The notes under the pieces: generated by a model
Told to the model about the DNA's origin: nothing
What the model saw: the letters and a program-made list of their open reading frames with translations, nothing else
The model's database searches: none
Assembly: GCF_000250655.1 (NCBI RefSeq)
Contig: NC_016935.1
Location: 3,676,001-3,740,000 of the forward strand
Source: Paenibacillus mucilaginosus 3016
GTDB lineage: Bacteria; Bacillota; Bacilli; Paenibacillales; NBRC-103111
Direction: 5' to 3'
DNA length: 64,000 nt
Translations under genes and position numbers: made by a program
Shown: positions 20,330-64,000 of the stretch, in pieces
How the letters are laid out: every line of letters begins with the position of its first letter
Position numbering within the stretch: position 1 is the stretch's first letter

Positions 20330-20437
20330 TTTGAGGCCCCCAAATGTAACCTGGAGCCATGGCAAGGCAAAAATCAATTCACTTATAATGAGAGCATATC
20401 AATTGCCAAAGGGAACTGGATGGAGGTGGAGCTGGAA

Positions 20438-23658: not shown

Positions 23659-26600
23659 TTGAATACGTATTCCCGCGAATTATTTCCTCTGACCCAGGCG
23701 CAGCAAAGAATCTGGTACACGGAGATGTTATATCCGGGCACCACGGCCTGTCTGCTCTCCGCAACAGTCAACATCGAAGGTCCGTTTCAGCCGGAGATTC
23801 TCAAGCAGGCCATTCAATGGGCGATCCGGCACAACGACGCTTTTCGGATCAGAATGACTCAGCAGGATGGCATACCGATGCAGTATGTCGAACCTTATAC
23901 ATATAAAGACATTGAATATGTCGATTTCTCGGATGCGCAGGACGAGCGTCAAGCTCAGCAGTGGCTGTATGAACATAACCGCAAGCCTTTAGTTTTTCTG
24001 GAATCAGATTTGTTCCGGTTTGTGATTCTCAAAATAAAAGACGGTTATTATCAATACAACGTCCAGATGCATCATATTGCCGCCGACGGGATCGGCCTCA
24101 ACCTGGTTATCAACCAAATCTCGGACTATTACGCCGCCATCGTGAATGAAGACCCGGCTGCGGCGGATATCAAAAGAAGCTCTTATATCGATTACATTCC
24201 TGCGGATCAGGCTTACGAGAGTTCGGAAAGGTACCGGAAGGATCAAGCGTTCTGGCTCGACAAGTTCAGCACGCTCCCGGATCTGACCGGACTGAAATCG
24301 TATGACCCGTTCTTAACGAGTACGGCTGCGGAGCGGAAAACCTTCATCCTTGATCACGAGCTCTTCAAGGACATCAAAGCGTTCGGCCAGCAGCATAACG
24401 TAAGTGTGTTTACCATCTTCCTGGCGGCATTGTATATCTACCTGCATAAAGTAACGAACGAGCAGGACGTGGCGGTCGGAACGAACTTTGCCAACCGGAC
24501 CAGCAAGCAGGAGAAAGACATGGTCGGGATGTTCGTCAGTACGGTGGCGGCCCGGGTCAGCGTGGATCCGGAAGCGGATCTGCTGTCGTTCCTTCAGCAA
24601 GTCGCCAAGGAGCAGCAGTCCCTTCTCCGTCACCAGAAATATCCGTATAACCATTTGATACAGAACCTCCGGGAGAAGCACCAGAATCATTCCATTCAAC
24701 GGCTTTTCGGGATCGTGATGGAATACCAGGTGTTGAGCTTTCCTGAAGTCGACCACCTCAAGCTGCTGACCAAACCTGATTTTTGCGGCCATGAAATGAA
24801 TGATTTTGTGATTCACATTAAGGAATCGATCAACGAGAACCAGATCGATCTCGATGTGGATTATCGGACTCATGTTTTTCAGGAGAGCGAGATCGAAGGT
24901 TTGATTCAGAGGCTTCTTCTTACTGTACAATTTATGCTCCGCAGTCCGCACACCACGATAGCCGAGATTTCGTTGATCAGTGAGGAAGAGCGAAGGCTGA
25001 TCTTGACCGAATGGGCAGACACGGCGGCTCCGTATCCGAAGGAGAAGACGATTCATCAGCTGTTCGAGGAACAGGCTGCGCGTACTCCGGAGCGGACAGC
25101 CGTCACGTTCGGCAGCGAGCGACTGACCTACCGCGAGTTGAACGAGCGTGCGAATCAATTGGCACATACGCTGCGGGCCAAGGGAGTCCAGCCGGACGGG
25201 CTCGTTGGTGTCATGGCCGAGCGCTCCCTCGAAATGATCGTGGGTATCTACGGGATTCTGAAAGCCGGTGCCGCCTATGTGCCGATTGATCCTTCCTTTC
25301 CTGAAGAGCGCATCCGGTACATTCTGGAGGATTCGGGTGCAGGGCAGCTCCTGCTGAAGAGCCATTTGGGCAGCCGCATCCCCGCGGAATTTGCAGGAGA
25401 GCTCGTCGAACTGGATGACGAGTCGGTCTATGCGGAGAACCGTTCGACCCCGCAGGGGACCGCCGGGCCGAACCACTTGGCTTACGTTATTTATACGTCG
25501 GGATCTACAGGCAACCCCAAAGGGGTGATGGTCGAGCACCACTCGGTTATCAACCGGCTGCTGTGGATGCAGGAGGCGTATCCCTTGGATTCGTCGGACA
25601 CCATTATGCAGAAGACGCCGGTGACCTTCGACGTCTCCGTATGGGAGCTGTTCTGGTGGGCACTGGCGGGCGCGAAGGTGCATCTGCTGCCGCCGGGAGG
25701 GGAGAAGGACCCGGGCCTCATTCTGCATACGATCGCGGAGCAGCATATCACCACGATGCATTTTGTACCGGCGATGCTGCAGGCGTTTCTCGATCATATC
25801 GAGCATCTGCCCGAGCAGGAGCGTGCCGGCAAGCTGGTATCGCTGAAGCAGGTGTTCGCAAGCGGTGAAGCCTTGACGCTGCCCCAGGCGTCCAGGTTCC
25901 AGCGCTTTATCGCGCCGGTGCACGGGGCGAAGCTCATCAATCTGTACGGTCCGACGGAAGCTACGGTCGACGTATCGTATTATGAGTGCACGGAGGATCT
26001 GTCGGGGCTTGCCTCCGTTCCGATCGGCAAACCGATTTCGAATATTCAATTATACATAACAGGAGCAGGAGCGAAGGAGCTGCAGCCGATCGGTGTGCCC
26101 GGAGAGCTGTGCATCGCCGGAGTCGGCGTAGCGCGGGGGTATTTGAACCGGCCCGAGCTCACGGCGGAGAAATTTACGGACAACCCGTTCGTTCCGGGCG
26201 GACGGATGTACCGTACCGGGGATTTGGCGCGCTGGCTGCCGGAGGGGCAGATCGAATACCTGGGACGGATCGACCACCAGGTGAAGATCCGCGGATACCG
26301 GATCGAGCTTGGCGAAGTCGAAGCCAAAGTATCGAAGATCGAGTCCGTGAGAGAAGCCGTCGTCATGGCGCGGGAGAAGGAGGACGGACAGAAGCATCTT
26401 TGCGCATACTTCGTGGCGGACCGGGAGCTGACGGTCGGAGAACTGAGAAAGGCGCTGTCCCTGGAACTGCCGGAGTACATGATCCCGTCGTACTTCATCC
26501 AGCTGGCGAAGATGCCGCTGAGCCCTAACGGCAAGATCGACCGCAAAGCGCTGCCGGCTGTCGAAGGGAACGTCCATGCGGACGCGGAATATGCCGCTCC

Positions 26601-26889
26601 GCGCACGCCGGTGGAGAAGGCGCTGGTCTCGGTTTGGGAATCGGTTCTCGGCATGAAGACGGTCGGCATTCACGACCACTTCTTCGAGCTGGGCGGGAGT
26701 TCGATCAAAGCCATGCAGGTTTCTTCCCGGCTGCAGCAGGCAGGATACAAGCTGGACATGAAGCATCTGTTCACCTACCGGACGGTGGCCGAGCTGAGCA
26801 CGTTTGTTCAGCCGCTTACGCGGACGGCCGATCAAGGGGAGGTCATGGGAGAAACCCTGTTGATCCCTATTCAACACTGGTTTTTTTGA
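23659..26889 (+). CDS. Lipopeptide NRPS 1, first segment: starter C - A(Ser) - T - start of E; frame broken at 26887
   Basis: TTG 23659 is the likely start (AAGGAG eight nt upstream); ATG 23641 lies before that site. Domains by nucleotide position: starter-type condensation 23680-24960 (PLTQAQQRIWYTEMLYPGT; active site MHHIAADG), adenylation 25010-26560 (YTSGSTGNPKG, YRTGDLARW, NGKIDRKALP) and thiolation 26590-26810 (LGGSSIK). The frame ends in the first residues of an epimerization domain. The ten pocket residues read DVWHFSLVDK, a serine code, so the module should load and epimerise Ser1. The N-terminal C domain resembles lipoinitiation domains of Paenibacillus lipopeptides. A run of seven T (26881-26887), where homology needs six, creates a TGA; the protein otherwise continues in the next frame. 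This may be the gene named cilC in the cilagicin cluster. Confidence 0.85.
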   Translation: MNTYSRELFPLTQAQQRIWYTEMLYPGTTACLLSATVNIEGPFQPEILKQAIQWAIRHNDAFRIRMTQQDGIPMQYVEPYTYKDIEYVDFSDAQDERQAQQWLYEHNRKPLVFLESDLFRFVILKIKDGYYQYNVQMHHIAADGIGLNLVINQISDYYAAIVNEDPAAADIKRSSYIDYIPADQAYESSERYRKDQAFWLDKFSTLPDLTGLKSYDPFLTSTAAERKTFILDHELFKDIKAFGQQHNVSVFTIFLAALYIYLHKVTNEQDVAVGTNFANRTSKQEKDMVGMFVSTVAARVSVDPEADLLSFLQQVAKEQQSLLRHQKYPYNHLIQNLREKHQNHSIQRLFGIVMEYQVLSFPEVDHLKLLTKPDFCGHEMNDFVIHIKESINENQIDLDVDYRTHVFQESEIEGLIQRLLLTVQFMLRSPHTTIAEISLISEEERRLILTEWADTAAPYPKEKTIHQLFEEQAARTPERTAVTFGSERLTYRELNERANQLAHTLRAKGVQPDGLVGVMAERSLEMIVGIYGILKAGAAYVPIDPSFPEERIRYILEDSGAGQLLLKSHLGSRIPAEFAGELVELDDESVYAENRSTPQGTAGPNHLAYVIYTSGSTGNPKGVMVEHHSVINRLLWMQEAYPLDSSDTIMQKTPVTFDVSVWELFWWALAGAKVHLLPPGGEKDPGLILHTIAEQHITTMHFVPAMLQAFLDHIEHLPEQERAGKLVSLKQVFASGEALTLPQASRFQRFIAPVHGAKLINLYGPTEATVDVSYYECTEDLSGLASVPIGKPISNIQLYITGAGAKELQPIGVPGELCIAGVGVARGYLNRPELTAEKFTDNPFVPGGRMYRTGDLARWLPEGQIEYLGRIDHQVKIRGYRIELGEVEAKVSKIESVREAVVMAREKEDGQKHLCAYFVADRELTVGELRKALSLELPEYMIPSYFIQLAKMPLSPNGKIDRKALPAVEGNVHADAEYAAPRTPVEKALVSVWESVLGMKTVGIHDHFFELGGSSIKAMQVSSRLQQAGYKLDMKHLFTYRTVAELSTFVQPLTRTADQGEVMGETLLIPIQHWFF

Positions 26890-26971
26890 ACAGGAGTTTG
26901 CGGCTCCGCATCACTTTAATCAGGCATTCCTGCTGTACCGCGAGGAGGGATTTGATGAGGCGGCGCTGCGC

Positions 26972-29900
26972 TTGACGGTTCAAAAGATCGCCGAGCATCA
27001 TGACGCCCTGCGGATGGTCATGGTTCTCCGGGAAGACGGCTATAGGGCAAGGATTCGGAGTGTGGACGAAGGGGAGCTTTACAGTCTGGAGACGGTGGAT
27101 CTGCGGGAGGGGGCTGCGGCCGAGACCTCCGAGCCGTCGCCGATCGCCCAGGCGATTGCAGAGAAGGCGAACGAAATCCAGAGCCGTATGGACCTTGCGA
27201 ACGGCCCGCTGCTGAAGCTGGGTCTGTTCCGCTGCGCGGATGGCGACCACCTCCTGATCTCCATTCATCATATGGCAGTGGATGGGGTGTCGTGGCGAAT
27301 CCTGTTCGAGGATCTGGCGGCAGGGTACGAGCAGGCGGTACAGGCACAGCCTATCCGGCTTCCGGCCAAAACCGATTCCTTCCGGCTTTGGTCGGAGAGT
27401 CTCGCCGCCTATGCGGACAGTCCGGCCATGGAAGCGCAGCGGGCCTACTGGCAGGGAATCGAGCAGGCGCATACCGAGCGGCTGCCGCTGGATTTCGGCG
27501 GACACGGCCTGGAAGCTCCGGAGCGGGATCATGCAGCCGGCGGTAAGCTCCCCGAGCAGGGGAGTGAAACGGGCCGTCCGCATGAGCCTGAGCGTGAGCG
27601 TCCACTCCTGCGGGACAGTGATATCGTCACCGTCCGCTGGTCGAAGGAGGACACGGAGCGCTTGCAGAAGCAGGCGCATCGGGCCTACAACACCGACATG
27701 AACGACCTGCTGCTTACGGCGCTGGGCCTCGCGATCCACCGCTGGACTGGGCTGGAGCGGGTGCTTGTCAATCTGGAAGGCCATGGCAGGGAACCGGTGG
27801 TTCCGGATATGGACGTGACGCGGACGGTCGGCTGGTTCACGAGCCAATTCCCGGTGCTCTTGGAGCTGGACCAAGAGAATACCGATTCGCCGGAAGGTCT
27901 GGGCGCCCGTATTAAGCGGGTCAAAGAAAGTCTGCGCGGCATCCCGCATAAGGGGATCGGTTACGGCATTCTTCGTTATCTCTCGGCTCCTGCGGGGACG
28001 CCGTCCGCCGTCCGCTTGGGGGTTGAACCCGAGATCAGCTTTAACTACCTGGGTCAATTCGACCAGGATCTGGAGAGCAGCGGGCTGAAGCCGTCGCCTT
28101 ATTCGGGCGGTGCGGACCGGAGCGAACGGAACGCAAGGCCTTATGTGCTCGATATGAACGGCGCGGTAACCGGCGGGGAGCTGATCATGACGGTCAGCTA
28201 CAGCACCACTCAATACCGGCGGGAGAGCGTGGAGCGGCTGGGCGAATGCTTCCAGGCCGCTCTGCGGGAGATCATCGCCCACTGCACTGCGCAAGAGAGG
28301 GCGGAGCTGACGCCGAGCGATGTCTTGTTCAAGGGGCTCACGGTAGAAGAGCTGGACCGCCTTCAGCAGCAGACGCAGCAGATCGGCGAGATAGAGAATG
28401 TCTACGCACTGACGCCGATGCAGAAGGGCATGTGGTTCCACCGCAGGCTGGATGAGGGGTCTCATGCGTACTTCGAGCAGGTCACCTTTACCTTGAACGG
28501 CCTATTGGATCCGGACACCTTCCGGCAGAGCCTCGACCATCTGACCCGGCGGCATGATGCTTTGCGGACGAATTTCTACAGCGGCCGGGGCGATCAGCCT
28601 CTGCAGGTCGTATACCGGAGCCGGAAGCCCGGTTTTGCCTATGAGGATCTTCGCGGACTGCAGCCGGGGGAACGACAAACACAGGTGGACGCGCGGATCC
28701 AAGGCGATAAAGCCAGAGGGTTTGATCTCGAGCAGGATCCGCTCTTCCGGGTAACGATTCTCCGCCTTGCCGATAAGGAATATCAGTTCCTCTGGAGCTT
28801 CCATCATATCGTGATGGACGGCTGGTGCCTGCCTTTGATGATTCAGGAAGCGTTCGACGCTTATGCGGCCTTCGGGAATGGGAGCGAACCGGCGCTCGGA
28901 ACCGCCGGATCGTACGGCCGCTATATCGAGTGGCTGGAGCGGCAGGACGGCGAAGCGGCGTCCGGTTATTGGAAGACGTACCTGGACGGGTATGACAGCC
29001 AGACGGATCTTCTGCCGGCAAAGTCTCAACAGGGACAGGGGAGCGCGGACGGATATACGCCGGAGAAGCTGGTCAGCAGCCTTGGGAAGCCTCTGACCGA
29101 GGGACTGCAGCGCACCGCGAACCGGCTTCAGGTGACGATGAATACGATGATTCAGACGGCCTGGGGAGTGCTGCTGCAGCGGTATAACCGCACGGACGAC
29201 GTCGTATTCGGCAGCGTCGTGTCGGGCCGGTCGGCGAACATCCCGGGCATCGAAACGATGATCGGACTGTTCATCAATACGATCCCGGTGCGCGTCCGCA
29301 GCGGGGCGGAGGAGACGGTGGCCGGACTGCTGAGAAGCGTTCAGGAGCAGTCGCTTCTCTCAGCGGCGTACGATACGTATCCGCTCTATGAAATTCAAGC
29401 GTTAAGCGGGCAAAAGCAGGACCTGATCCGCCACCTTGTCGTGTTCGAGAACTACCCGATGGATCAGCGTCTGGGACAGTTCCAAGAAGAGAAGGGAATC
29501 GTGCTCAGCGGATTCCAAGCCGAGGAACAGACCAATTATGACTTTAATGTCATTGTTCTGCCCGGAGAGGAACTCACGCTGCGGCTCGAATTCAACGGCG
29601 GAGTGTATGACCGTGAAGGCGTGGAACGGGTCCGTGGGCACCTGGTTCGCCTGCTGGAGCAGTTCGCGGGCCGGCCGGAAGCCCGGATCGGCGAGCTGGA
29701 GCTGCTGACCTCGGCGGAGCAGACGGATCTGCTGGAGATGTTGGATGCCGCTGCAGCCGAGTATCCGCGCGGGAAGACGATCCATGAGCTGTTCGCGGAG
29801 CAGGCGCAGCGTACGCCGGACCGTACTGCGGTCGTGTATGAAGACCGTCAGCTCACCTATCGTCAGCTGGACGAGCAGTCCAGCCGGCTTGCCGTCTGGC

Positions 29901-32900
29901 TCCGTGAACAGGGGGTCGGTGCGGAGACGCTCGTCGGGGTGATGTTGGAGCGTTCGGTTGACATGATCGTGGCGATGCTCGGAACGCTCAAAGCCGGCGG
30001 CGCTTATGTGCCGATCGATATCAAGCTGCCGCAGGAGAGAATCGACTATATCATCGAGGATTCCGGGATCGGCTACTTGATCACTGCGGATGCGCTCGAT
30101 CAAGCGGCCGGGTTCGCCGGAACCCGCATCGATATCAAGCATGAACGGGTCAGCACCGGACCTGCCGATGCGCCGGAGGCGGTCAGCACCAGCCGGAATC
30201 TCGCTTATATCATCTACACGTCAGGCACGACAGGCCGGCCCAAGGGTGTGATGGTCGAGCATAACCAGGTCGTGCGGCTTATGGTGAACGACAGAATGCC
30301 GTTTGATTTTACGGAGAACGATGTGTGGACGATGTTCCATTCGAACTGCTTCGACTTCTCCGTCTGGGAAATGTACGGTGCCCTGCTGTACGGAGGCAAG
30401 CTGGTCATTGTACCGGAGGAAACGACGAAGGACTTCGAAAGCTATCTGGCCCTCCTGAAGAAGGAACACGTTACGGTGCTGAATCAAACGCCGGGCGCCT
30501 TCTACCTGCTCATGAATCTGGCCGTACAAGACGCCCGCCGGGATGCCGGGCATGGTCAGCCGCTCAGCCTGCGGTATGTGATCTTTGGCGGGGAGGCGCT
30601 CAAGCCGGCCCTGCTGCAGGACTGGAAACGGACTTACCCGGACACCCGGCTCATCAATATGTACGGGATTACCGAAACGACCGTACACGTTACGTTCAAG
30701 GAGATCGGGCTGCAGGAGATCGCCAGCGGAATCAGCAATATCGGCCGGGCGATTCCGACGTTAACCACGTACGTCATGGATGAGCATCTCAACCTGCTTC
30801 CGTTCGGGGTGGCAGGCGAGCTGTGCGTCGGCGGTGACGGAGTGGCGCGGGGGTACTTGAACCGCGCGGAGCTGACGCAGGAGCGCTTCCTGCCGAATCC
30901 GCATCGGGAAGGCGAGCGGATCTACCGGTCGGGCGATTTGGTGCGGCTTTTGCCAAACGGCGAGCTGGAGTATTTGGGACGGATTGATCATCAGGTCAAG
31001 ATCAGAGGCTACCGGATCGAGCTCGGCGAGATCGAGAACCGTCTGCTTGGCCATGAGGAGATCGAAGATGCGGTCGTTCTGGCCAAGGAAGACAAGCAGA
31101 GCTTAATGTACCTGTGCGCTTATTTCGTAAGCCGCCGGGAGCTGACGCAGGCCGACCTGAAAGCCTATCTCAAGCTGAGCCTGCCCGAATATATGGTTCC
31201 GGCGTTCTTCGTCAGGCTGGAGGAGTTCCCGCTGACCGGCAACGGCAAAGTGAACCGCAAAGCGCTGCCGGAACCGGCGATCAGCAGCTTGGCGGCCGCG
31301 TCCTATGAAGCACCACGGACCGAAGCGGAGCGGAAGCTGGCGGCCATCTGGCAGGCGGTGCTGGACGTGGAGCGGGTAGGCGTGGACGATAACTTCTTTG
31401 AGCTCGGCGGGCATTCCCTCAAGGCGACGGCCGTAGTCAGCGAGATCGGACGTGAGTTCCACATCCGGCTTCCGCTGAAGGAACTGCTTCTGCATCCGAC
31501 GGTGCGGGAAATCGGCGCCTATCTCGAACGGAGCGGGGCGGGGGATGCCAAGCCAAGCCTCGAACGGATCGAGCCTTGCGTGATCAGCGAGACCTACGAG
31601 ACGTCTTCGGCACAGAAACGGCTGTATGCGGTACAGCAGAGAGAGCCGGACAGCACGGCTTACAATATGCCCGGCTGCTTCGAGCTTGGGCCGGACGTGC
31701 AGGAGGATCGCCTGGAGGCGGCACTGCAAGCGTTGATCCGGCGGCATGAGGCTCTGCGGACTTCGTTTGAGACGGCGGATGGGGAGATTGTGCAGCGGAT
31801 CGCGGACGACATCCGGTTCCAGCTGGAAGTCCGGCAGGAAAGCGAATCCGATCCGGCTCTGGTCGCAAGCCGGTTTGTGCGTCCGTTCTCCCTGGACCAA
31901 GCTCCCCTGTTCCGGGCTGAGCTTGTTCGAAGCGGAGACAAGCGGTACCTTCTGCTCGACATGCATCATATCGTGACGGACGGGTTATCCCTGCGGCTGT
32001 TCCTGGACGAGCTGCTCGCGCTGTATGAGGGCGCCGTACTGGAGCCGCTGCCCATTCAGTACAAGGATTATGCCGTGTGGCATAACCGGTTCCTGCAGTC
32101 GGACGAGCTGAAGAAGCAGGAGCAGTACTGGGTGAGCCAATACCAGGATGAGGTGCCGCAGCTCCGTCTCCCTTATGATTTGGAGCGGCCGGCGGTCCAA
32201 AGCTTCGAGGGCGGTACCGTCATCCTCTCGGTTGCTCAGGGGACAACCGAGCGGCTTCGCAGGTTGGCGAAGGAGCGGGGATGCACCCTGCACATGGTCC
32301 TGCTGTCCGCCTTCCAGCTCCTGTTATCCAGGTACAGCGGTCAGGACGATCTTGTCGTGGGCGTGCCGGTCGCAGGACGTTCCCGGGCGGAGCTCCAGAC
32401 CATGATGGGGATGTTCGTCAATACCCTTGCACTCCGCAGCAGGCCCAGCGGAGACAAGACGTACCTCGACTATTTGAACGAAGTACGGGAGTACACCCTG
32501 GAGGCTTACGAGAACGACAGCTATCCGTTCGACCGCCTTGTGGAGCGGTTGGCATTAACGAGAGATTCCAGCCGAAATCCGCTGTTCGACGTGATGTTCG
32601 ATACGTATACGGTCGAGGCTCCGGGAAGAAGGAGTCCGGGCGCGGGGGCAGGCGGGCTGACTCTCGAACCGCGGAGCTTAGACCGGGGCATGGCCAAATT
32701 CGATATCGAATTCAACGTGCTGGAACAAGGCGGCGCCCTGGAGCTCAGCGTCGACTATGCCGCCAGGCTGTTCCACCGGGAAACCATCGAAAGAATGGCA
32801 TCGCATTATACCCGGATTCTGGAGGATATCGCCCTGAACGGCGGCAGTGACAAAAAGCTTTCGGACATCGAAATGCTTCTCCCGGAAGAGAGAGAAGTGC

Positions 32901-35900
32901 TGATACACCGCTTTAATGAAGTGGCGGCGGATGAGCCGGCCGAGCGGCTGTTCCACGAATGGTTCGAGGAGCAGGCGGACCTGACGCCGGATCAGACGGC
33001 CGTGGTCTACGAGGAACAGCGGCTCACCTACGGGGAGCTGAACGCAAGGTCGAATCGCCTTGCCCGCACCTTGAGGCAGGCGGGCGTGCAGCCGAACCAG
33101 CTGGTGGGCATCCTGGCGGACCGTTCGGTGGACCTGCTGGTCGGCGTGATGGGCGTGTGGAAAGCCGGAGCCGCCTATGTGCCGCTTGATCCGGATTACC
33201 CGTCCGAACGCATTGACTTTATGCTCGAGGACAGTGGCGCCAAGGTGCTGCTGACCCAGACGGGACTCCGAGAGCGCGCCGAAGGCTGGCTCAGCGGGAA
33301 CGGTCATCTGCAGGCGGTGCTTTGCCTGGACGACGAAGCCTCTTATGACGAAGCTTCTTATGACGAAGCCTCTTTTGCCGAGGAATCGGCGAACCTCTCT
33401 CCTGCGTGCAGGCCGCAGGACCTGGCGTATGTCATCTATACGTCCGGCACAACCGGACGGCCGAAGGGCGTAATGATCGAACACCGCAGCTTGATGAATA
33501 CGGCGTCAGCCTACCGCCGGGAGTACCGGCTGGGCGAGTTCCCTGTACGGCTGCTGCAGCTGGCCAGCTTCTCCTTCGACGTATTCGTCGGCGACATCGC
33601 CCGGACGCTGTATAACGGCGGCACGATGTTCATCTGCCCGAAGGACGACCGCATTGATCCGGTCCGTCTGTACGAGCGAATTCGTCAGGACGGGATCACC
33701 ATCTTCGAATCGACGCCTGCCCTGATCGTGCCGTTCATGGAATATGTGGCGGAGCAGGCACTTGACATGAGCGCAATGGAGCTGTTGATTACAAGCTCGG
33801 ACAGCTGCAGCGTGAAGGATTACCGGCTGCTGCAGGAGCGCTTCGGCTCCGGGTTCCGCATCATTAACGCTTATGGCGTGACGGAAGCGACGATTGATTC
33901 GAGCTTCTACGACGAGCCGTTGGACAAGCTGCCGGCAGGAGGCAGTGTGCCGATCGGCCGGGCGTACCTGAACGCGAAGTTCTACATCGTGGACGCCTTC
34001 CTGAACCCCGTGCCGGTAGGGGTGCTGGGCGAGCTCTGCATCGGGGGTCCCGGTGTGGCGCGCGGGTACTGGAACCGGCCGGAGCTTACGGCGGAGAAGT
34101 TCGTGGACAGTCCGTTTGCCGCCGGCGAACGGCTGTATCGAACGGGCGACCTGGCCCGCTGGATGCCGGACGGCAACGTTGATTTTATCGGGCGGATCGA
34201 TCATCAGGCCAAAATCCGCGGATACCGCGTCGAAACCGGAGAAATCGAGACGGTGCTGCTCAAGGCGGAAGAGGTGCGGGCAGCGGTGGTCGTCGTACGT
34301 GACGATGCGGCCCGGCAAAAGGTGCTGTGCGCTTACGTCACGAGCGACCGGGAGCTTGATCCGGATCTGCTGCGCAGCCGGCTTGCCCAGGAGCTGCCAA
34401 GCTACATGGTGCCGTCGTATTTCATCCAGCTGGCTCATCTGCCGCTGACGGCCAATGGCAAGGTCGACCGGAAAGCACTGCCTGAACCGGATTTTGGTGC
34501 CATGAAGGCCGCTGACTATGAAGCTCCCCGCAGTGATGCGGAAGCGAAGCTTGTGGAAGTGTGCAGTGAGGTGTTGGGCGGGGAACCGGTTGGGATCCAG
34601 GCCAATTTCTTCGATCTCGGCGGGGATTCGATCAAGGCGATCCGTATCATCTCCAAGCTGCAAAAGTATGGTTACAGCCTGGAAGTGAAGCATATTTTCG
34701 GTGACGGAGCGCTGAAATCGATAGCCGGCCACTTGAAGCGGCAGGAATCGGCCGTCCGTCAGGAGACGGTGACCGGGGAAGCGGCGCTGACTCCGGTTCA
34801 GAGATCCTTCTTCGAGCAGGAGCTGACCGATCCGCACCATTACAATCAATCGGCGATGCTGTTCCGCTCCGAACGGTTCGATGGGGAGCTCGTCCGCCAA
34901 GTGTTCGAGGAGATCGTATCGCACCACGACGCCCTGCGGATGGTATACCGCGAGGAAGGCGGCCGCATCGTCCAGTATAACCGGGGAGTCGAAGCTTTCC
35001 ACGAGCTGTTTGCCCTGACTGTGTTCGATTACACCGGACGGGGCGACTGCGCGGAGGAAGTCGGAGCCCGCAGCAGCGAGCTGCAGAGCAGCATGGATCT
35101 GGAGCATGGGCCGCTGGTCCAACTCGGATTGTTCCGCTTAGACGAAGGCGATCACCTGCTGATTGCGGTTCACCATCTGGTCATCGACGGCGTGTCGTGG
35201 AGAATTCTGCTCGAAGATTTCACGGAGGGGTACCGTCAGGCGCAGGAGGGGCCAGCCATCCGGTTCCCGGCGAAGACCAACTCCTTCCGGGACTGGGGCG
35301 CCTACTTGCAAAAGCAGGTGGAGAGCGGGGCGCTGGAGGAAGAATTTGGCTACTGGGACCGGATCCAGCAGGCGGCGATCGAGCCTCTGCCTGTCGATGG
35401 GAACAGCGGCGGGAAAGACAGCAGGCTCAGAGATGCGGGAGAGCTCCGCGTGGAGTTCAGCCTCGATGAGACGGATCGGCTGCTTAAGCAGATCCACCGG
35501 GCTTACCGTACGGATGTGCAGGATATTTTGCTAACGGCGCTGGGCTTATCCGTAAGGGAGTGGACCGGGCAAGACCAGGTTCTTATCCAGCTGGAAGGCC
35601 ACGGCCGACAGCTCCTGGAAGGCGGCATCGAGATCGGCAGGACGGTAGGCTGGTTCACGGCGGAGTATCCTGTGCTGCTTGAGATGGGCGCCTCTGCGCT
35701 GCCTCAAGCGGTTAAGCGGGTCAAAGAAACGCTGCGCCATGTACCGAATAAGGGAATCGGGTACGGCATGCTGAAATATCTGGGCGGCGGTAGGACGGAG
35801 TGGAACCGGAATACGCCGGAGATTAGCTTCAACTACTTGGGGCAATTCGACGGGGAGCTGCAAGGCGACCTGTTCGAGGTGTCACGCTTATCTGCGGGAG

Positions 35901-41593: not shown

Positions 41594-43527
41594 CCGCCTG
41601 GCGGTCTACAACGTGTACGGGCCGACGGAGACGACGATCTGGTCGACCGTGAAGCGGATGGAGACAGGGGCGGCGCGCCTGACCATCGGCAAGCCGATCG
41701 GCAATACGCAGATCTATATGGTCGATGCCCAGGATCAGCTCACGCCGGTCGGCGTGCCGGGCCACATGTGCATCGCGGGCGACGGGGTCACCCGCGGGTA
41801 CTTGGGCCGTCCGGAGCTCACGGCGGAGAAGTTCGTGGACAATCCGTTCGTACCGGGCACCCGGATGTACAAGACCGGGGACCTCGCCCGCTGGCTGCCT
41901 AGCGGGGAGATTGAATTCCTCGGGCGGATGGACAACCAGGTGAAGATCCGCGGGTACCGGATCGAGCTCGGTGAGATCGAGCACCGGCTCGCGGGCCATG
42001 CCGCGGTGAAGGAAGCGGTGGTGACGGCACGGACGGACGAGAGCGGACAGCCGTACCTGTGCGCGTACTTTGTCGGCCGGAGCGGGCCGGTGGAGAAGGG
42101 CGAACTGAAGGGGCACCTGAAGGCCGGCCTGCCCGAGTACATGATACCGGCGTACTTCGTGCAGCTCGAGGAGATCCCGCTGACGAGCAACGGGAAGGTG
42201 AACCGCAAGGCGCTGCCGGCGCCGGACGAGAGCGCGCTGGTGACCGGCGGCTACGAAGCGCCGCAGACCGCGGTCGAAGAGACGCTGGCGGCGATCTGGA
42301 GCCGGGTGCTGGGCGTAGCGCAGGTCGGCATTCACGACAGCTTCTTCGACCTGGGCGGGCACTCGCTGAAGGCGACACTGCTGATGAGCGGAATCCACCA
42401 GAAGCTTCAGGTGGAAGTGCCGCTGCAGGAGCTGTTCCGGCGGCCGACGATCCGCGAGCTGGCGGGGTATATCGAGACGGCCGGCGCCCGGGCATACGAG
42501 GCGATCGAGCCGGTGGCGGAGCAGGCGTGGTACGAAGCGTCGTCCGCGCAGAAGCGGATGTACGCGCTGCAGCAGCTGGATCCGCAGAGCACGGCCTACC
42601 ATATGCCGGGCGTGTATGAGCTGGAAGGCCGGGTGGACGCAGGCCGGCTGGAGCGGGCACTGAAGGGTCTGGTGCAGCGGCATGAAGCGCTGAGAACGTC
42701 GTTCGCCGCGGAAGACGGCGAGATTGTGCAGCGCATCGAGCGGGAAGCGTCCTTCGGGGTGCCGGCGCGCACCTACGGGGAGAAGCCGATCGAGGCGATC
42801 GCCGCGGACTTTGTGAAGCCGTTCGAGCTGGAGCGGGCGCCGCTGTTCCGGGCGGAGCTGGCGGAAGCCGGAGGCCGGACGTACCTGCTGCTGGACATGC
42901 ACCATATCATCTCGGACGGGGTGTCGATGGGGATTCTGGTGAAGGACTTCGTCCGGCTGTACAACGGGGAAGAGCTGGAGCCGCTGCGGATCCAGTACAA
43001 GGATTATGCGGCGTGGCATAACCGGCGGCTGAAAGAAGGCGAGCTGGCGAAGCAGGAAGCGTACTGGACGGCGCAGTTCGAGGACGGCGTGCCGGTGCTG
43101 AGGCTGCCGTACGATTACGAACGCCCTGCGCTGCAAAGCTTCGAGGGCGAGCGTCTGCACTTCACGCTGGGCGGGGAGGCGACGCAGGGTCTCAGGGTGC
43201 TGGCGAAGGAGCAGGAAGCGACGATGCCGATGGTGCTGATGTCGGTGTTCACCATCCTGCTGTCGAAGTACAGCGGACAGGAGGACATCGTGGTGGGCAC
43301 ACCGGTGGCGGGAAGACCGCACGCGGACCTGCAGGAGATGGTCGGGATGTTCGTCAACACGCTGGCGCTGCGAAGCCGTCCGGCGGGCGGGAAGACGTAC
43401 CGGGCGTATCTGCAGGAGGTCAAGATGAGCTCGCTGCAGGCGTACGACCATCAGAGCTACCCGCTGGAGCAGCTGGCCGAGAAGCTGGGCACCCGCCGCG
43501 ATCTGAGCCGCAACCCGCTGTTCGACG
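40699..43527 (+). repeat. Long direct repeat, copy 1 (A-T-C of NRPS 1)
   Basis: This segment matches 53938-56762 almost base for base, apart from scattered substitutions, one extra C here (near 40904) and three missing bases in the other copy. It starts inside the linker before A5 and ends in the middle of the C-terminal C domain. Confidence 0.85.
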
Positions 43528-43874: not shown

Positions 43875-44026
43875 TCCGGGGGTCCGGGAACTGGAATCAA
43901 CTGAAAGAATCCATAGCATACCCGCTTTACATGCCTGAGCTTGACCGCTGTACCGGACGGTTCTGCGATAAGCCGCGATGACCGTCCGGCACCACCGGCG
44001 GAATTAAGGGAAAGAGGAGGAACATC
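43875..44026 (+). other. Intergenic spacer between NRPS 1 and NRPS 2 with a stem-loop
   Basis: CCGGACGGT (43953-43961) and ACCGTCCGG (43981-43989) form a perfect 9-bp stem with a 19-nt loop and no T-run. It may stabilise or process the message rather than end it. GAGGAGG lies just before the next ATG. The genes are probably one operon. Confidence 0.5.
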
Positions 44027-57109
<13,083 letters not shown>

Positions 57110-57211
57110 CAAATGATGTTCGCTCGTAGCCCGTCCGTGAGGCATTGCCGCGGGTGGCGTGCCCGGACCGGCACGGGCGGACTGCTTTGTACAATAGAAT
57201 GGAGGTTTGTC

Positions 57212-60200
57212 ATGAACAAAGAAACCCCAGCGGGCATTTTGCATGAGGACCCCACCCCTTCCATGACGTATTGGACAAGTCTCGGTCTCGATGAAGTGGA
57301 ACGAAACGGCCTGAGCTTCGATTCCTTCGACAGTTCAGCAGTTCGGCAGGAGCGGATCGTACATACCCTTCCGGATGAGCTTGCCGGGAAAGTCATCAAC
57401 ATTACCAAAAACAACGACATGCTGCTGTATGTCGTGTTCCTGTCGGCACTCTCTATCGGACTCATGAAATATACGGGGCGCGAGGAGCGGATCATCGGGA
57501 TTCCGGCGTATGCGCCCGGCGGACAGAAAAACCGCGCGGTGCCGAATAAAGTGCTGCCGCTCAAAACCGGCGTGTCCGGTGAATGGAGCGTCAAGCAGCT
57601 GCTCAAAGACATGCAGCAAAAGACGCTTGACGCGTATGAACATCAGTATGTGGACGTGGAAGCCCATCTTCAGCAGGCGAACGTGTGCCGGTCCCTGACG
57701 GAGCTGATCCCGATCCGGGCAGCCCTCAACACACTGCACAGCGCGAGCGATATCGAATACATAGTGAACTCCAGCAGCAGCGAATTGACCTTGGCTTTGA
57801 ACAAAGGGGAAGACGGCTCGCTCGAAGCCGTGTTCGTGTATAACGCGGGATGGCTGCAGCGGGAGACGGTCGAACGGTTCGCCGGCGCCTTCTTCGAAGT
57901 GCTTGGGCAAATGCTGACGCAGCCGAACCAGGCCATTGCGGCGATCTCGATTGCAGCGGAACATGAACGGTCCCAAATTCTGTACGAGTTTAACCGTACG
58001 GACACCGCATACGCAGACAGCCGGCTGACCCTCCCGGAGCTGTTCACGGCACAAGCCGCGAAATCGCCGGACCGGACGGCCGTATGGTTCCAGGATAAGC
58101 CGTACACGTTCCGGGAGATCGAGGAGCAGTCCAATGCGCTGGCCAGGCTGCTCCAAGCCCGGGGCGTGAAGCCGGAGTCGGTTGTCGGCATTCTGCTGGA
58201 ACGTTCGGTGGAGCTGATCGTCGGCATCCTGGGCGTACTGAAGTCGGGAGCGGCATACCTGCCGCTGGATCCGGGCCATCCGAAAGCCAGGAAGGAATAC
58301 ATTCTTCAGGAAGCGGGAGTGAAGCTGCTGCTTTCGGTTTCCCCGCTTGCAGGCGAATTGGACTACTCCGGCGAGCTGCTGGATGCCGCCGATTCCGGGC
58401 TGTTTGCAGGAGACATCCGTCCTGTCGAGCCTTGGGCCGGGCTTCACGATCTGGCCTACGTCATCTATACATCGGGAACCACAGGCAACCCCAAAGGCGT
58501 CATGGTCGAGCACCGCACGTTAAGCCTGACCCTGCTGTGGGAGCAGCAGGAATACGGTTATGGTGACCGTCATCTTTCGCTGCCGATAATCAACCATGCG
58601 TTTGACGGCTTTATCACGTCGATCTTCGCACCGCTCCTATCGGGAAGCGGCGTGATTCTGGTCAGCGGCGAGGAGATGACGAAGCCGGATGCCATCAGCG
58701 AATATGTGAGGCGCCTTCCGGTCACCCACTACATCAGCGTGCCTTCCATCTATCTGACTTTGGTCGAGTTTTTGGAGGCGGAAGACGTCCGCCACCTGCA
58801 GATGGCGACCTTCGTAGGAGAGGAGCTGCCGCTGAAAGCTATCGAGTATACCCGTCAGCTCAACCCGCAGATTGAGATTGTAAACCGGTACGGACCGTCG
58901 GAGAACACGGTAGATACGACGATCATGAGACATGTCAGTGCGGACCGGCGGCCGGGCGGAAGCGTTCCGATCGGAAGGCCCGTGGCGAACACCAAGGTAT
59001 TCATTGTGGATCGGCATCATGCGCTCGTCCCGGTCGGCGTGCCGGGAGAGCTGTGCATCGGCGGCGAGCGGCTGGCCCGCGGGTATCTGAACAGGGACGA
59101 TCTGACGGCCCGAAGCTTCATCCCGAGCCCCTTCGAGCCGGGCGGGACGATCTACAAAACCGGAGATTTGGCCAAGTGGCTGCCGGACGGTACGATTGAA
59201 TTTCTCGGCCGAATCGACAATCAGGTAAAAATCAGAGGGGTCCGTATTGAGCTCCGGGAGATCGAAAACCGGCTGCTGAGCCACCCGGAGCTGAAAGAAG
59301 CCGTCGTCCTGGTCAAGATGAGCCCGCAGAAAGAGCCCTATCTTACAGCCTATTTCGTAGGAACCCCGCAGGCAGATCCGGCCGCTGTGAAAGCTTATCT
59401 GAAGGAGCATTTGCCCGCTTACATGGTGCCGGCTTATTTCATCCCCTTGGACCGCATGCCGCTGACCACGAACGGTAAGATCGACCGGCGGGCTCTGCCG
59501 GAGCCGGACTTCGAGCGTGCAGGGGCAGGCTTCTACCAAGCTCCGCAGACCGGGACTGAGCAGCGTCTGGCGCAGCTCTGGAGCGAAGTGCTGGGAGCGG
59601 AGCGCGTCGGCATTCACGACAACTTCTTCGATCTTGGCGGCCATTCGCTCAAGGCCACCTCGCTGCTCAGCAAGCTTCACAAGCAGATGAAGGTCAAGCT
59701 GACGCTGAAGGAGTTGTTCGGGCATCCGACCATTCGGGAGATGGCCGGCTTGATCGATACGGGAGCGGATGCTGCAGACAGCCCCTACGACCGGATCGAG
59801 CCCTGCGGTCCGCAGGAATGGTACGAGACCTCCACCTCCCAGAAACGGATGTATCTCATCCAGCAGCTCCAGAAGGGGACCGCGTACAACATGCCGCTGC
59901 TCTGCGAAGTGGAGGGAGAGTTCGACAGGCAGCGCATGGAAGCCGTGTTCCGGGGGCTGATCGACCGGCACGAGTCGCTTCGCACCTCCTTTGACAACCG
60001 GGACGGCATGATCCTGCAGAAGGTTCATCCCGAAGGCATCCCGTTCCAGCTTGTTCTGAGGCAGGCGGACGGCGAAGACGCCGAATCGCTGATGCAATCC
60101 TTCGTGCGGCCCTTTGATCTGTCGGAGGCACCGCTGTTCCGGGCGGAGCTGGCCGAGACCGGCGGGCGGATCTATCTCATGACCGACATGCATCATATCG

Positions 60201-63200
60201 TCAGTGACGGCGTGTCGGCTCAGCTGCTCATGCGGGAATTCGCCGAGCTTTACCGCGGCGGCGAGCTGGAGCCGCTGCGCATCCAGTACAAGGATTATGC
60301 CGCCTGGCAGAGCCGCTTTCTCCAATCGGAAGCCATGAGCCGCCAAGAGGCCTATTGGAAGGGACGGTTCGAGGGCGAGATTCCGGTGTTGACCCTGCCG
60401 TATGACCGCGTGCGTCCCGTCATGCAGAGCTTCGAAGGGGGGCGGGTCGGATTCTCGCTGGATGAATCCGAGGCGGATCTTGTACGGAGCATCGCGCGGG
60501 AGACGGGGAGCACGACCCAGATGGTGCTGCTGTCGGCCTATTACATCCTGCTGGCAAAATACAGCGGCCAGGAAGACATGGTCATCGGCAGCGCAGCCGC
60601 GGGCAGACCGCATGCGGATCTGCAGAACATCGTGGGGATGTTCGTCCATACGCTGGCGCTGCGCAATCAGGCGGCCGGTGCGAAGCGGTATTCCGAATTT
60701 TTGGCGGAAGTGAAGCGGCATGCGCTCGAGGCTTACGAGAATGACGCTTACCCGTTCGAATCGCTGGTGGATGCCATTCAGGTTGAACGCGATCCGGGCC
60801 GCAATCCGCTGTTCGACGTGATGTTCAACATGAGCCATGACGAGGAAGAATCCGAAGCGGTGCTGGAAGGCTTCCGGCTGAACCAGGTGAAGCGCGAGAG
60901 CGGTCTGTCGAAGTTTGATCTGACGCTTCATGCCAGTGAGAACAAGCGCACCATCGAATGCGGGCTGGAGTACAGCCGGGCTTTATTCGAGGCGGACACC
61001 GTGGAGAGAATGGCCCTCCATTACAAGCACATCATCAGGCAGATCGGCAGGAACCGGGAGACGCAGCTTGCCGACATCGACCTCATCACCGAGGAGGAGA
61101 AACGGGAGATCCTGGAGCAGTTTAACGCCACAAGTACCGAGTATCCGCGCGGCTTGACGATTCATGCGCTCTTTGAGGAGCAGGTCCGTAGAACGCCGGA
61201 GAGGACTGCCGCCATATACGATGGCAGGAGCGTTACCTACCGCGAACTGAACGCCCGGGCCAACCGTCTGGCGCGCGTGCTCAGAAACGAGGGGGTCGGG
61301 GCGGATATCGTCGTGGCGATCATGGTCGAACGCTCGATTGAGATGCTGATCGGTCTTCTCGGCATTCTGAAGGCCGGCGGGGCTTATCTGCCGGTCGATC
61401 CGGATTATCCGAACGAGCGGATCGAATATATGCTGAACGACTGCGAAGCGGGCATTCTGCTGACTTCCGGAGGGACGGCCCAACGATTCGCGTTTGCGGG
61501 CATCACATTCGATATCGCAGCCGAGTCGGAAAGAGCGGGCTTGGCGGAGTCTGATCCAGACACCGAGACGCAGGTCTCGCATTTGGCTTACGTCGTGTAT
61601 TCGTCCGGCAGTACCGGGCAGCCGAAAGGGATCCTTGCCGAGCACCGCAATGTGGTGCGGCTGGTGAAGAATACCAACTATGTCGAGTTTCGGGAGGACG
61701 ACCGCATCCTGCCTACCGGGGCGCTCGTCTTCGACGCTACGACCTTCGAGATCTGGGGCGCGCTGCTGAACGGGCTGACGCTGGTTCTGGTTCCGCAGGA
61801 TACGATCCTGTCGGCGGAGAAGCTGGGACGGGCGCTGGAGGAGCACCGGATCACCATTCTGTGGCTGTCCGTAGCTTTGTTCAACCAGCTGGCCCAGGAG
61901 AAGCCGGAGATGTTCCGGCCCGTGCGCTTTATGGTCGTGGGCGGCGAAGTCCTGTCTCCGAAGCATATCAATCTCGTGCGGCACGCCTGCCCCGATCTGC
62001 AGATCTCCAATGTGTACGGGCCGACGGAGAACACGACCTTTTCCACGAGCTACCCGATCCACAGAGACTTTGATACGAATATCCCGATCGGCAGGCCGAT
62101 CAGCAATACGACGGCTTATGTTGTAGGCAAGCGGGGAGAACTGCTGCCCAAAGGCGTGTTCGGAGAGCTGGTGCTGGGAGGGGACGGAGTAGCCCGGGGG
62201 TATTTGAATCTTCCGGAGCAGACGGCGGATAAATTCGTGCCGAGTCCGTTCGTCCCCGGGGAGCGGTTGTACCGGAGCGGCGATGTGGTCAGGTGGCTGT
62301 CGGACGGCAATATCGAGTTCCAGGGCCGGGCGGATACGCAGGTCAAAATCCGCGGCTTCCGCATCGAGCTGGAAGAAATCCGCCGCAGGCTGACCGGCCA
62401 TCGGTCGGTCAAAGAGGCGTACGTCACCGTCCAGGAGACCGAAGAGCAGGGCAGGTTGTTGTGTGCTTACCTCACGGCGGAAGGCGGCTTCGACCGATCA
62501 GCCGTGAGGTCGTATCTCAAGGAAAGCTTGCCGGACTACATGGTTCCTTCCTATATGAAGGTGCTGGACCAGCTGCCGCTGACGACCAACGGCAAAGTGG
62601 ACAAGCGGGCGCTGCCCGGCATTTCGCCGGAAGAGCTTGCGGAAGGCACTTACGAAGCGCCGCGGAACGCCGCGGAAGAGAAGCTGGTCGAGATTTGGCA
62701 GGGTGTGCTCGGCGTGCGCAGGATCGGAATCGAGGATCATTTCTTCGATCTGGGGGGACATTCGCTGAAAGCGATGGCGGCGATCGGCCTCATTCACAAG
62801 GAGCTCCATAAAGCGGTTCCTCTGCGGACGTTCTTCGAATGCCCGACAATCAAAAGCTTGAGCGGGTACTTGGAACAAACCGCTGCCGGCGTGCATGAAG
62901 GCATTCCCAAAGCCGGGGCCAAGCCTGTATATCCGGCATCCTCCGCGCAGAAGCGGATGTACACGCTGCAGCAGCTCGATCAAGAGAGCACCGCCTACAA
63001 CATTCCCGCCGTGTTCCGATTGAACGGTACGATTGACCAAGCGAAGATCGAGCGCACGCTGCAGCAGCTGGTGAAGCGGCATGACGCGTTCCGCACCTCC
63101 TTTGAGACGAGGGATGGGGAAGTCGTGCAGCTCGTGCACCCGGACATTGCTTTCCAGGTGGAGGTTAGCGAAGGAGCGGGGAGCGCGGATGACCTTGCGG

Positions 63201-64000
63201 GTACGATTCAGCGGTTTATCCGGGTATTTGATCTCGCCCAGGCGCCGTTATTCCGGGCGGAGCTGGCCTTCACCAGTGAGGGCACGTATTTGCTGCTCGA
63301 TATGCACCACATTATCTCCGACGGGGTGTCCATGGGGATTCTGGCGGAGGAGTTTGCCGGGCTGTACAGGGGAGAAGCGCTGGAGCCGCTGCGGATTCAG
63401 TACACGGATTACTCCGAATGGCAGAACGGAGGCCTGCGGTCGGAGCCTATGAAAGAGCAGAGGAACTATTGGGTCAGCCTGTTCCAGGACGAGCTGCCCG
63501 TGCTGAATATGCCGTATGATTACGAGCGGCCTGCGGTGCAAAGCTTTGAAGGCAGCACGCTGCGCCTGGCCCTCGGCGAGGCCGGGACGGAGCGGCTGCG
63601 GTCGCTCGCCAAACAAACGGGAAGCACGCTGAACATGGTGCTGCTCTCGGCCCTGTATATTCTGCTGGCCAAGTACAGCGAGCAGGAGGATATCATCGTC
63701 GGTACGCCGGTGGCAGGCCGGAACCATCCGGAACTCGCCGGCGTCGTCGGGATGTTCGTCAATACGCTGGCGCTGAGGGCACAACCTGCCGCCGCCAAAA
63801 CGTATGCCGAGTTTTTGCACGAGGTCAAAGAACATTCCTTGAAGGCGTACGAGTATCAAAGCTATCCGCTGGAGGAGCTGCTCGAGCAGATCAACGCAGT
63901 CCGGGACATCAGCCGCAATCCGCTATTTGATGTCATGTTCGCTTTGAATACGGAAGAAGGTCCGCCTCCAGGGGAAGCGGAGTCCGGATGGGACGGGCTT
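57212..64000 (+). CDS. Lipopeptide NRPS 3 (3' end beyond window): half-C - A(unassigned)-T - C-A(Val/Ile-like)-T - C...
   Basis: The frame opens at ATG 57212, preceded by GGAGG, and has no stop in 2263 codons to the window edge. It begins, like NRPS 2, with a half condensation domain (MTYWTSLGLDEVE to about 57970) lacking HHxxxDG. Then: A9 58030-59500 (YTSGTTGNPKG, YKTGDLAKW), pocket residues DGTITVRVDK, which I cannot assign; T9 (LGGHSLKAT); C10 59790-61100 (MHHIVSDG); A10 61170-62610 (YSSGSTGQPKG, YRSGDVVRW), code DAFWVGVTFK, closest to Val/Ile codes; T10 (LGGHSLKAM); and C11 from 62920 (MHHIISDG), cut off. Neither complete module has an epimerase, so residues 9 and 10 should be L. A thioesterase is not seen and must lie downstream. 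It may be cilE. Confidence 0.88.
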   Translation, partial: MNKETPAGILHEDPTPSMTYWTSLGLDEVERNGLSFDSFDSSAVRQERIVHTLPDELAGKVINITKNNDMLLYVVFLSALSIGLMKYTGREERIIGIPAYAPGGQKNRAVPNKVLPLKTGVSGEWSVKQLLKDMQQKTLDAYEHQYVDVEAHLQQANVCRSLTELIPIRAALNTLHSASDIEYIVNSSSSELTLALNKGEDGSLEAVFVYNAGWLQRETVERFAGAFFEVLGQMLTQPNQAIAAISIAAEHERSQILYEFNRTDTAYADSRLTLPELFTAQAAKSPDRTAVWFQDKPYTFREIEEQSNALARLLQARGVKPESVVGILLERSVELIVGILGVLKSGAAYLPLDPGHPKARKEYILQEAGVKLLLSVSPLAGELDYSGELLDAADSGLFAGDIRPVEPWAGLHDLAYVIYTSGTTGNPKGVMVEHRTLSLTLLWEQQEYGYGDRHLSLPIINHAFDGFITSIFAPLLSGSGVILVSGEEMTKPDAISEYVRRLPVTHYISVPSIYLTLVEFLEAEDVRHLQMATFVGEELPLKAIEYTRQLNPQIEIVNRYGPSENTVDTTIMRHVSADRRPGGSVPIGRPVANTKVFIVDRHHALVPVGVPGELCIGGERLARGYLNRDDLTARSFIPSPFEPGGTIYKTGDLAKWLPDGTIEFLGRIDNQVKIRGVRIELREIENRLLSHPELKEAVVLVKMSPQKEPYLTAYFVGTPQADPAAVKAYLKEHLPAYMVPAYFIPLDRMPLTTNGKIDRRALPEPDFERAGAGFYQAPQTGTEQRLAQLWSEVLGAERVGIHDNFFDLGGHSLKATSLLSKLHKQMKVKLTLKELFGHPTIREMAGLIDTGADAADSPYDRIEPCGPQEWYETSTSQKRMYLIQQLQKGTAYNMPLLCEVEGEFDRQRMEAVFRGLIDRHESLRTSFDNRDGMILQKVHPEGIPFQLVLRQADGEDAESLMQSFVRPFDLSEAPLFRAELAETGGRIYLMTDMHHIVSDGVSAQLLMREFAELYRGGELEPLRIQYKDYAAWQSRFLQSEAMSRQEAYWKGRFEGEIPVLTLPYDRVRPVMQSFEGGRVGFSLDESEADLVRSIARETGSTTQMVLLSAYYILLAKYSGQEDMVIGSAAAGRPHADLQNIVGMFVHTLALRNQAAGAKRYSEFLAEVKRHALEAYENDAYPFESLVDAIQVERDPGRNPLFDVMFNMSHDEEESEAVLEGFRLNQVKRESGLSKFDLTLHASENKRTIECGLEYSRALFEADTVERMALHYKHIIRQIGRNRETQLADIDLITEEEKREILEQFNATSTEYPRGLTIHALFEEQVRRTPERTAAIYDGRSVTYRELNARANRLARVLRNEGVGADIVVAIMVERSIEMLIGLLGILKAGGAYLPVDPDYPNERIEYMLNDCEAGILLTSGGTAQRFAFAGITFDIAAESERAGLAESDPDTETQVSHLAYVVYSSGSTGQPKGILAEHRNVVRLVKNTNYVEFREDDRILPTGALVFDATTFEIWGALLNGLTLVLVPQDTILSAEKLGRALEEHRITILWLSVALFNQLAQEKPEMFRPVRFMVVGGEVLSPKHINLVRHACPDLQISNVYGPTENTTFSTSYPIHRDFDTNIPIGRPISNTTAYVVGKRGELLPKGVFGELVLGGDGVARGYLNLPEQTADKFVPSPFVPGERLYRSGDVVRWLSDGNIEFQGRADTQVKIRGFRIELEEIRRRLTGHRSVKEAYVTVQETEEQGRLLCAYLTAEGGFDRSAVRSYLKESLPDYMVPSYMKVLDQLPLTTNGKVDKRALPGISPEELAEGTYEAPRNAAEEKLVEIWQGVLGVRRIGIEDHFFDLGGHSLKAMAAIGLIHKELHKAVPLRTFFECPTIKSLSGYLEQTAAGVHEGIPKAGAKPVYPASSAQKRMYTLQQLDQESTAYNIPAVFRLNGTIDQAKIERTLQQLVKRHDAFRTSFETRDGEVVQLVHPDIAFQVEVSEGAGSADDLAGTIQRFIRVFDLAQAPLFRAELAFTSEGTYLLLDMHHIISDGVSMGILAEEFAGLYRGEALEPLRIQYTDYSEWQNGGLRSEPMKEQRNYWVSLFQDELPVLNMPYDYERPAVQSFEGSTLRLALGEAGTERLRSLAKQTGSTLNMVLLSALYILLAKYSEQEDIIVGTPVAGRNHPELAGVVGMFVNTLALRAQPAAAKTYAEFLHEVKEHSLKAYEYQSYPLEELLEQINAVRDISRNPLFDVMFALNTEEGPPPGEAESGWDGL

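Follow-up and report, generated by a model that had tools for sequence, protein, structure and literature searches.

Cilagicin is described, in the accessible part of PMC12826051, as the product of three nonribosomal peptide synthetase (NRPS) open reading frames, cilCDE, of Paenibacillus mucilaginosus. It is of interest because it binds two carrier lipids of the cell wall, undecaprenyl phosphate and undecaprenyl pyrophosphate, and because attempts to isolate resistant cells with it failed (PMC12826051, same part). The accessible text of PMC11106739 gives the cilagicins three NRPSs and 12 modules. Strain 3016 (CP003235) has an ANIm of 98% with strain K02, and the genomes measure 8.74 Mb (3016), 8.77 Mb (K02) and 8.66 Mb (KNP414), according to the part of PMC3961195 that we could consult.

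We analysed a window of 64,000 nucleotides, positions 3676001-3740000 of the 8,739,048-base single-contig genome of P. mucilaginosus 3016; positions above 64000 are given in extended window coordinates. Known NRPS docking pairs include the COM domains and a short linear motif with a beta-hairpin domain, and in Bacillus, Bce modules give protection from peptides that bind intermediates of the lipid cycle. We conclude, with a probability of about 0.83, that the cluster in the window is that of cilagicin (cil), carried by a sister strain within the species published as the producer, so that the cluster itself is with good probability already known. Like the cil cluster of P. mucilaginosus K02, it lies in what is probably the same species and has three NRPS genes and 12 modules; it differs in being from another strain and in the two frame breaks that NRPS1 carries in the 3016 record.

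Organisation of the cluster

An initial annotation of this DNA had claimed three collinear NRPS genes with ten adenylation (A) domains in the window, and domain searches bore this out, the fifth A domain being split by a frame break. The starter-type condensation (C) domain that it named was recovered by domain search and profile labelling, and the E domains that it placed after modules 1, 3, 6 and 7 were all found (four E, domain search). It had also read the cluster as that of cilagicin and staked this on two more modules and a thioesterase (TE) beyond position 64000; modules 11 (Dab) and 12 (Phe) and the TE are indeed there, which supports its reading. Over the window and the downstream DNA, the domain searches gave the three genes a starter C domain, 12 A domains, four E domains and one TE, in order. 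Since the A-domain matches in the window have E-values of 5e-70 to 5e-97, apart from 8e-12 for a fragment of the broken fifth, they are not due to chance. The features of the synthetase genes are as follows.

23641..43874, plus strand: NRPS1, modules 1-5 and the C domain of module 6; first ATG at 23641; two frame breaks as deposited
23680..25005, plus strand: starter C domain (N-acylation); domain search and profile
25063..26556, plus strand: A1, pocket code DVWHFSLVDK, presumably Ser
26864..26889, plus strand: first frame break, between T1 and E1
26870..28378, plus strand: E1; domain search
28400-29734, plus strand: D-acceptor C domain before A2; domain search and tree
29792..31270, plus strand: A2, pocket code DFWNIGMVHK, Thr (PMC12283262, in part)
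32963..34483, plus strand: A3, pocket code DVGEISAIDK, presumably Dab
34784..36166, plus strand: E3; domain search
36194-37531, plus strand: D-acceptor C domain before A4; domain search
37598..39112, plus strand: A4, pocket code DLTKLGHIGK, presumably Asp
40760..42218, plus strand: A5, pocket code DILQLGVIWK, Gly, split by the second frame break (about 40839-40930)
42528..43823, plus strand: terminal full C domain of NRPS1, for module 6; domain search
43824..43874, plus strand: C-terminal tail of NRPS1, ending AFSF, proposed docking motif
44027..57109, plus strand: NRPS2, modules 6-8 and the C domain of module 9; AGGAGG before the ATG
44060..44812, plus strand: orphan condensation C-lobe of NRPS2 (Pfam Condensation 184-456 only), proposed docking platform
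44858..46297, plus strand: A6, pocket code DLTKIGEVGK, Asn (PMC12283262, in part)
46595..47974, plus strand: E6; domain search
48002-49333, plus strand: D-acceptor C domain before A7; domain search
49394..50905, plus strand: A7, pocket code DLTKIGHIGK, presumably Asp
51206..52588, plus strand: E7; domain search
52616-53941, plus strand: D-acceptor C domain before A8; domain search
53999..55453, plus strand: A8, pocket code DILQLGVIWK, Gly (PMC12283262, in part)
55763..57058, plus strand: terminal full C domain of NRPS2, for module 9; domain search
57059..57109, plus strand: C-terminal tail of NRPS2, ending DFDF, proposed docking motif
57113-69907 (extended; genome end 3745907), plus strand: NRPS3, modules 9-12 and TE, the window part reaching 64000
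57245..57994, plus strand: orphan condensation C-lobe of NRPS3 (Pfam Condensation 197-456)
58043..59500, plus strand: A9, pocket code DGTITVRVDK, residue X
61172..62617, plus strand: A10, pocket code DAFWVGVTFK, presumably Val-like
62927..64000, plus strand: C11, running past the window end; domain search

About 8 kb upstream of the cluster lies an IS1182-like transposase (11367-12836, minus strand; below the NCBIfam cut-off). The genome gave 102 AMP-binding domain matches; MbtH had no match in it, the control being positive in E. coli and B. subtilis. A plasmid collection searched with the first piece of NRPS1 returned one Nocardia record, matching 4% of the query.

Substrate prediction

Aligning the A domains to A1 gave their ten-letter pocket codes; those of the two domains downstream of the window are DVGEISAIDK (A11) and DAWTIAAICK (A12). 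We take the 12 codes to stand for Ser, Thr, Dab, Asp, Gly, Asn, Asp, Gly, X, Val, Dab and Phe. On this assignment the three NRPSs with their 12 modules would make the predicted product N-acyl-D-Ser1-Thr2-D-Dab3-Asp4-Gly5-D-Asn6-D-Asp7-Gly8-X9-Val10-Dab11-Phe12, and the terminal TE would release it, probably as a lipodepsipeptide ring.

The initial annotation held that the Ser, Thr, Dab, Asp, Gly and Asn codes match established sets. For three of these residues the accessible part of PMC12283262 gives some backing: DFWNIGMVHK is named in its Thr section, DLTKIGEVGK appears in its Asp/Asn section as compatible with another residue too, and DILQLGMIWK is given for four Gly domains. The code of A9 is absent from the main text of that paper, the literature search having required at least two of six codes per paper. 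PDB matches of A9 are general NRPS proteins, and its code agrees at 7 of 10 positions with one that we presume to be a Tyr code. The Ser, Dab and Asp assignments are presumed in the same way. For A12, the top-scoring PDB matches after linear gramicidin synthase, whose score is the sum over two domains, were tyrocidine synthase 1 and gramicidin synthetase 1, both of which we take to be Phe enzymes.

A5 and A8 share 99.2% nucleotide identity (40896-42218 against 53999-55453, part of A5 being read), which suggests recent gene conversion between the two Gly modules. The same pair is 79.5-92.5% identical within each relative, against 70-76% for these domains between the P. mucilaginosus genome and the relatives; these values point to recurrent homogenisation of the Gly modules.

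Integrity of the NRPS1 gene

As deposited, NRPS1 consists of three open frames separated by two breaks. The gene proposed by the initial annotation therefore stands in its domains and not as a single open frame in the record, as the wording "frame-corrected" in that annotation had implied. Other NRPS genes of the same record contain five domains divided between two frames, three of them in one cluster and two in another, and three further junctions that resemble breaks, whereas the cil-like NRPS genes of three relatives showed no split in the stretches read. Because the splits recur within the record and are lacking in the relatives, the NRPS1 breaks are likely to be sequence errors of the record; if they are real, this copy of NRPS1 may be inactive.

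Types of condensation domain

A starter-C profile built from the single domain of the cluster was the best label for seven domains in the NRPS stretches of the same genome, and all seven come first in their open frame, one being cut by the stretch edge. Relatives of the starter domain (G005, G021 and G023) are 54-55% identical to it. C domains that follow an E domain had been said to have the style of D-acceptor domains, and a tree built with 114 C domains, drawn from stretches of the P. mucilaginosus genome and its relatives, agrees: the clade giving the best separation of the classes (support 0.96) takes in 28/28 post-E, 3/68 post-T and 7/17 frame-starting C domains. The four post-E C domains of the cluster are 39-51% identical among themselves and 21-28% identical to its other seven. 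One of the three post-T domains in the D-acceptor clade is the module 8 C domain of P. puerhi, which follows a Gly module without E and is perhaps a trace of a lost D-residue.

Related clusters in other bacteria

Scanning genome contigs with the start of NRPS2 revealed relatives in Paenibacillus sp. A3, P. ehimensis NBRC 15659, P. puerhi SJY2 and Rossellomorea sp. BNER; at 1e-30, matches were found in 4 of 104 family genomes (P. mucilaginosus and three congeners). The cil-like clusters of the three congeners share with the window the upstream BceAB genes, both orphan-C-lobe junctions, and Thr2 and Asp4-Gly5-D-Asn6-x7-Gly8 followed by the odd A9 code, so that Thr2, Asp4, Gly5, D-Asn6, Gly8 and the A9 code DGT[IT]T[VA]RVDK are constant in all four clusters. 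They differ in lacking the Ser module 1, in position 3, where all three have DLKNFGTDVK with an E domain, and in position 7, which has an Orn code with E in sp. A3 and P. ehimensis and a Gly code without E in P. puerhi.

In P. puerhi, an acyl ligase-ACP-KS protein and an ACP-C-(A remnant)-T module stand in place of module 1 (Pfam; L055:7270-13700). Since the latter has no A core, residue 1 would come from elsewhere or be missing there. In P. ehimensis and sp. A3 the profile matches at this point follow one another in the same order, namely a weak A, a T, about 650 unmatched residues, and then C, A remnant and T. The Rossellomorea genome has one orphan-C-lobe junction followed by D-Asn, D-Asp and Gly-like modules, and on another contig a TE followed by a regulator, a kinase, BceA and BceB; these pieces would belong to one, incomplete, cluster.

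Assignment of the cluster

The starter C domain, terminal TE, three NRPSs and 12 modules of the cil cluster are all found at this locus, and the numbers of NRPSs and modules are also those of a second cluster of the same genome. This cluster (G000:C1:5404000-5461999) has 12 A domains over three NRPSs once its own frame breaks are allowed for, together with a starter-type C domain, a TE, three Dab codes, two orphan C-lobe junctions, two ABC-transporter-like genes just upstream and an adjacent diaminobutyrate aminotransferase, a family with two genes above the cut-off in the genome. It could thus itself be the published cil cluster, the window then holding a different, unnamed lipopeptide cluster, and the cited facts (three NRPS ORFs, PMC12826051; 12 modules, PMC11106739; each from the accessible part) fit both loci. 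Because of this double fit, the literature that we could read is indecisive by itself. We take the codes of the second cluster to be Phe-Dab-Ile-Ser-?-Ser-Dab-?-Ser-Val-Ile-Dab; it starts with Phe and has neither a Thr nor an Asp code, whereas cilagicin has Ser1, Thr2 and acidic residues, and the initial annotation too gave it nucleophiles at positions 1 and 2. Composition, presumed in part, favours placing cilagicin at the window and not at the 5.40-5.46 Mb cluster, and we hold the opposite assignment (cil at 5.404-5.461 Mb) to be improbable. Our confidence in the cilagicin reading is no higher than stated because the second cluster also fits the cited facts, the presumed composition being what favours the window.

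Overlapping with that reading is the view that the window encodes a strain variant, whose product differs from that of K02 at one or more positions, or a copy made inactive by the broken NRPS1. The two frame breaks would fit this, as would the related species, which differ at positions 1, 3, 7, 10, 11 and 12 (P. puerhi alone allowed 11 and 12 to be read). Against a variant, strains of the species share about 98% ANIm (PMC3961195, accessible part), and against inactivity, the pattern of splits in the record and its relatives suggests sequence errors; we judge this view unlikely, if by no means negligible. We also considered a calcium-dependent lipopeptide antibiotic of the friulimicin or daptomycin kind, the core being rich in Asp and Gly. 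The mark of that class is Asp-X-Asp-Gly; the core here reads Asp-Gly-Asn-Asp-Gly in code order, and three relatives have Orn or Gly at the position of Asp7. The class was rejected because Asp-X-Asp-Gly is absent, and it is in our view highly improbable, although some calcium-dependent drugs also sequester undecaprenyl phosphate (in a table of PMC12826051, a source accessible in part).

Handover between synthetases

NRPS1 and NRPS2 each close with a full C domain containing HHIISDG, which serves module 6 and module 9, respectively, and NRPS2 and NRPS3 start with the C-terminal half of a condensation domain only; the start of NRPS2 is probably set correctly, since AGGAGG precedes its ATG. The upstream proteins close on short tails that are specific to the junction: [AS]F[SQT]F between the first and second synthetase in five clusters (AFSF, AFQF, AFQF, SFSF, AFTF) and [DE]FDF between the second and third in four (DFDF, EFDF, EFDF, EFDF). 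Three junctions of the same build in other clusters of the genome have the tails EFLF, DFSF and EFQL, so that F-x-F ends 11 of these 12 orphan-lobe junctions (cil-like and same genome), and it was found at 0 of the 5 E|C junctions examined.

We surveyed 25 genus, 296 order and 398 class genomes (overlapping draws) with a profile of 11 orphan lobes, eight of them from cil-like clusters. At 66 of 74 loci, a share that is selected because loci were chosen by profile score, the lobe starts less than 150 residues after an in-frame stop without HHxxxD before it; seven of the remaining loci are ordinary C domains or other, and one (L135) has no placed match. In front of each of the 66 lobes lies a frame whose last domain is a C domain with a tail of 4-24 residues, HHxxxD being present in 64 (part read), and behind each lobe comes an A domain (in five at a greater offset). 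The tail motif played no part in locus selection, and 57/66 tails end in F-x-F (31/38 among distinct last-eight tails), the nine others being EFQL, ELIF (2), VDFF (2), EVDF and QLNF (3). By count from the tables, these junctions come from 54 Bacilli genomes with seven family labels; they are not independent, because eight are cil-like and many others come from close relatives. As a control, F-x-F ends 10 of 944 frames of at least 150 aa (32 stretches), and eight of these are such junctions, leaving 2/936; in the window it ends 2 of 116 frames, exactly the two NRPS junctions. Judging from protein sizes (frames of 5300/2600/4000 aa and 5000/1100 aa), the layout perhaps includes iturin- and polymyxin-like synthetases.

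We tentatively propose, at somewhat less than even odds, that the F-x-F tail and the orphan condensation C-lobe form a docking system at both handovers, in which the junction-specific tails may provide an orthogonal code. The upstream C domain would receive its donor in cis, and its acceptor would be supplied by the protein that follows; the orphan lobe would preserve the C:A platform required by the A domain and present a surface to which the F-x-F tail could bind. The system would resemble COM and beta-hairpin docking pairs in joining a short C-terminal element to an N-terminal element of the next subunit, but here the latter amounts to one half of a condensation domain, and the last domain of the upstream protein is C and not T or E. 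An AlphaFold model of the orphan C-lobe with A6 (five sequences) had a mean pLDDT of 45.5, too poor to use. No description of this junction layout appeared among the papers listed by our literature search, and "truncated C domain" occurs once in PMC7253712; earlier notice is quite possible.

A candidate self-immunity module

Genes on either side of the NRPS genes resemble a Bce-type transporter and its two-component system:

20420..21199, plus strand: ABC transporter ATPase, BceA-like (Pfam ABC_tran), probable self-immunity
21186..23114, plus strand: BceB/PsdB-type permease, 642 aa; PDB sequence matches and FtsX domain
70138-70815 (extended): OmpR-type regulator, after the TE
70773-71873 (extended): histidine kinase, BceS-type; best PDB match BceS, 1.7e-28

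At E <= 0.01 the permease matches only PsdB (1.2e-45) and BceB (3.8e-39) among PDB sequences, and it is one of two matches in the genome at E <= 1e-10, the other being 22% identical. For the ATPase, permease, regulator and kinase, no NCBIfam model reached its cut-off (among the best 25 models where more matched). The locus has the parts of a Bce module: an ATPase, a BceB-like permease of about 640 aa, and a linked BceS-like kinase and OmpR-type regulator. Identity to the counterparts in the three related Paenibacillus clusters is 81-83% for the ATPase and 67-71% for the permease, and the Rossellomorea permease is 63% identical; in both P. puerhi and Rossellomorea a TE is followed by regulator and kinase, while the contigs of P. 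ehimensis and sp. A3 end earlier. The set is like BceRS-BceAB and PsdRS-PsdAB of Bacillus in its ATPase, large FtsX-type permease, OmpR-type regulator and BceS-like kinase; it differs from them in being split either side of the NRPS genes. The BceAB-type transporter and BceRS-type two-component system probably confer self-immunity on the producer, presumably by freeing undecaprenyl carriers from the drug.

Discussion

Beyond the known cluster, the analysis contributes an immunity module, natural variants and the architecture of the handovers. The relatives show which residues are fixed and which have changed, and so form a ready structure-activity map. If the orphan C-lobe and F-x-F tail are a docking pair, they would be a widespread handle for joining NRPS subunits, and the tail code, if true, could be used for NRPS engineering. 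Should the producer have a dedicated Bce-type module, nature would already hold a candidate answer to cilagicin.
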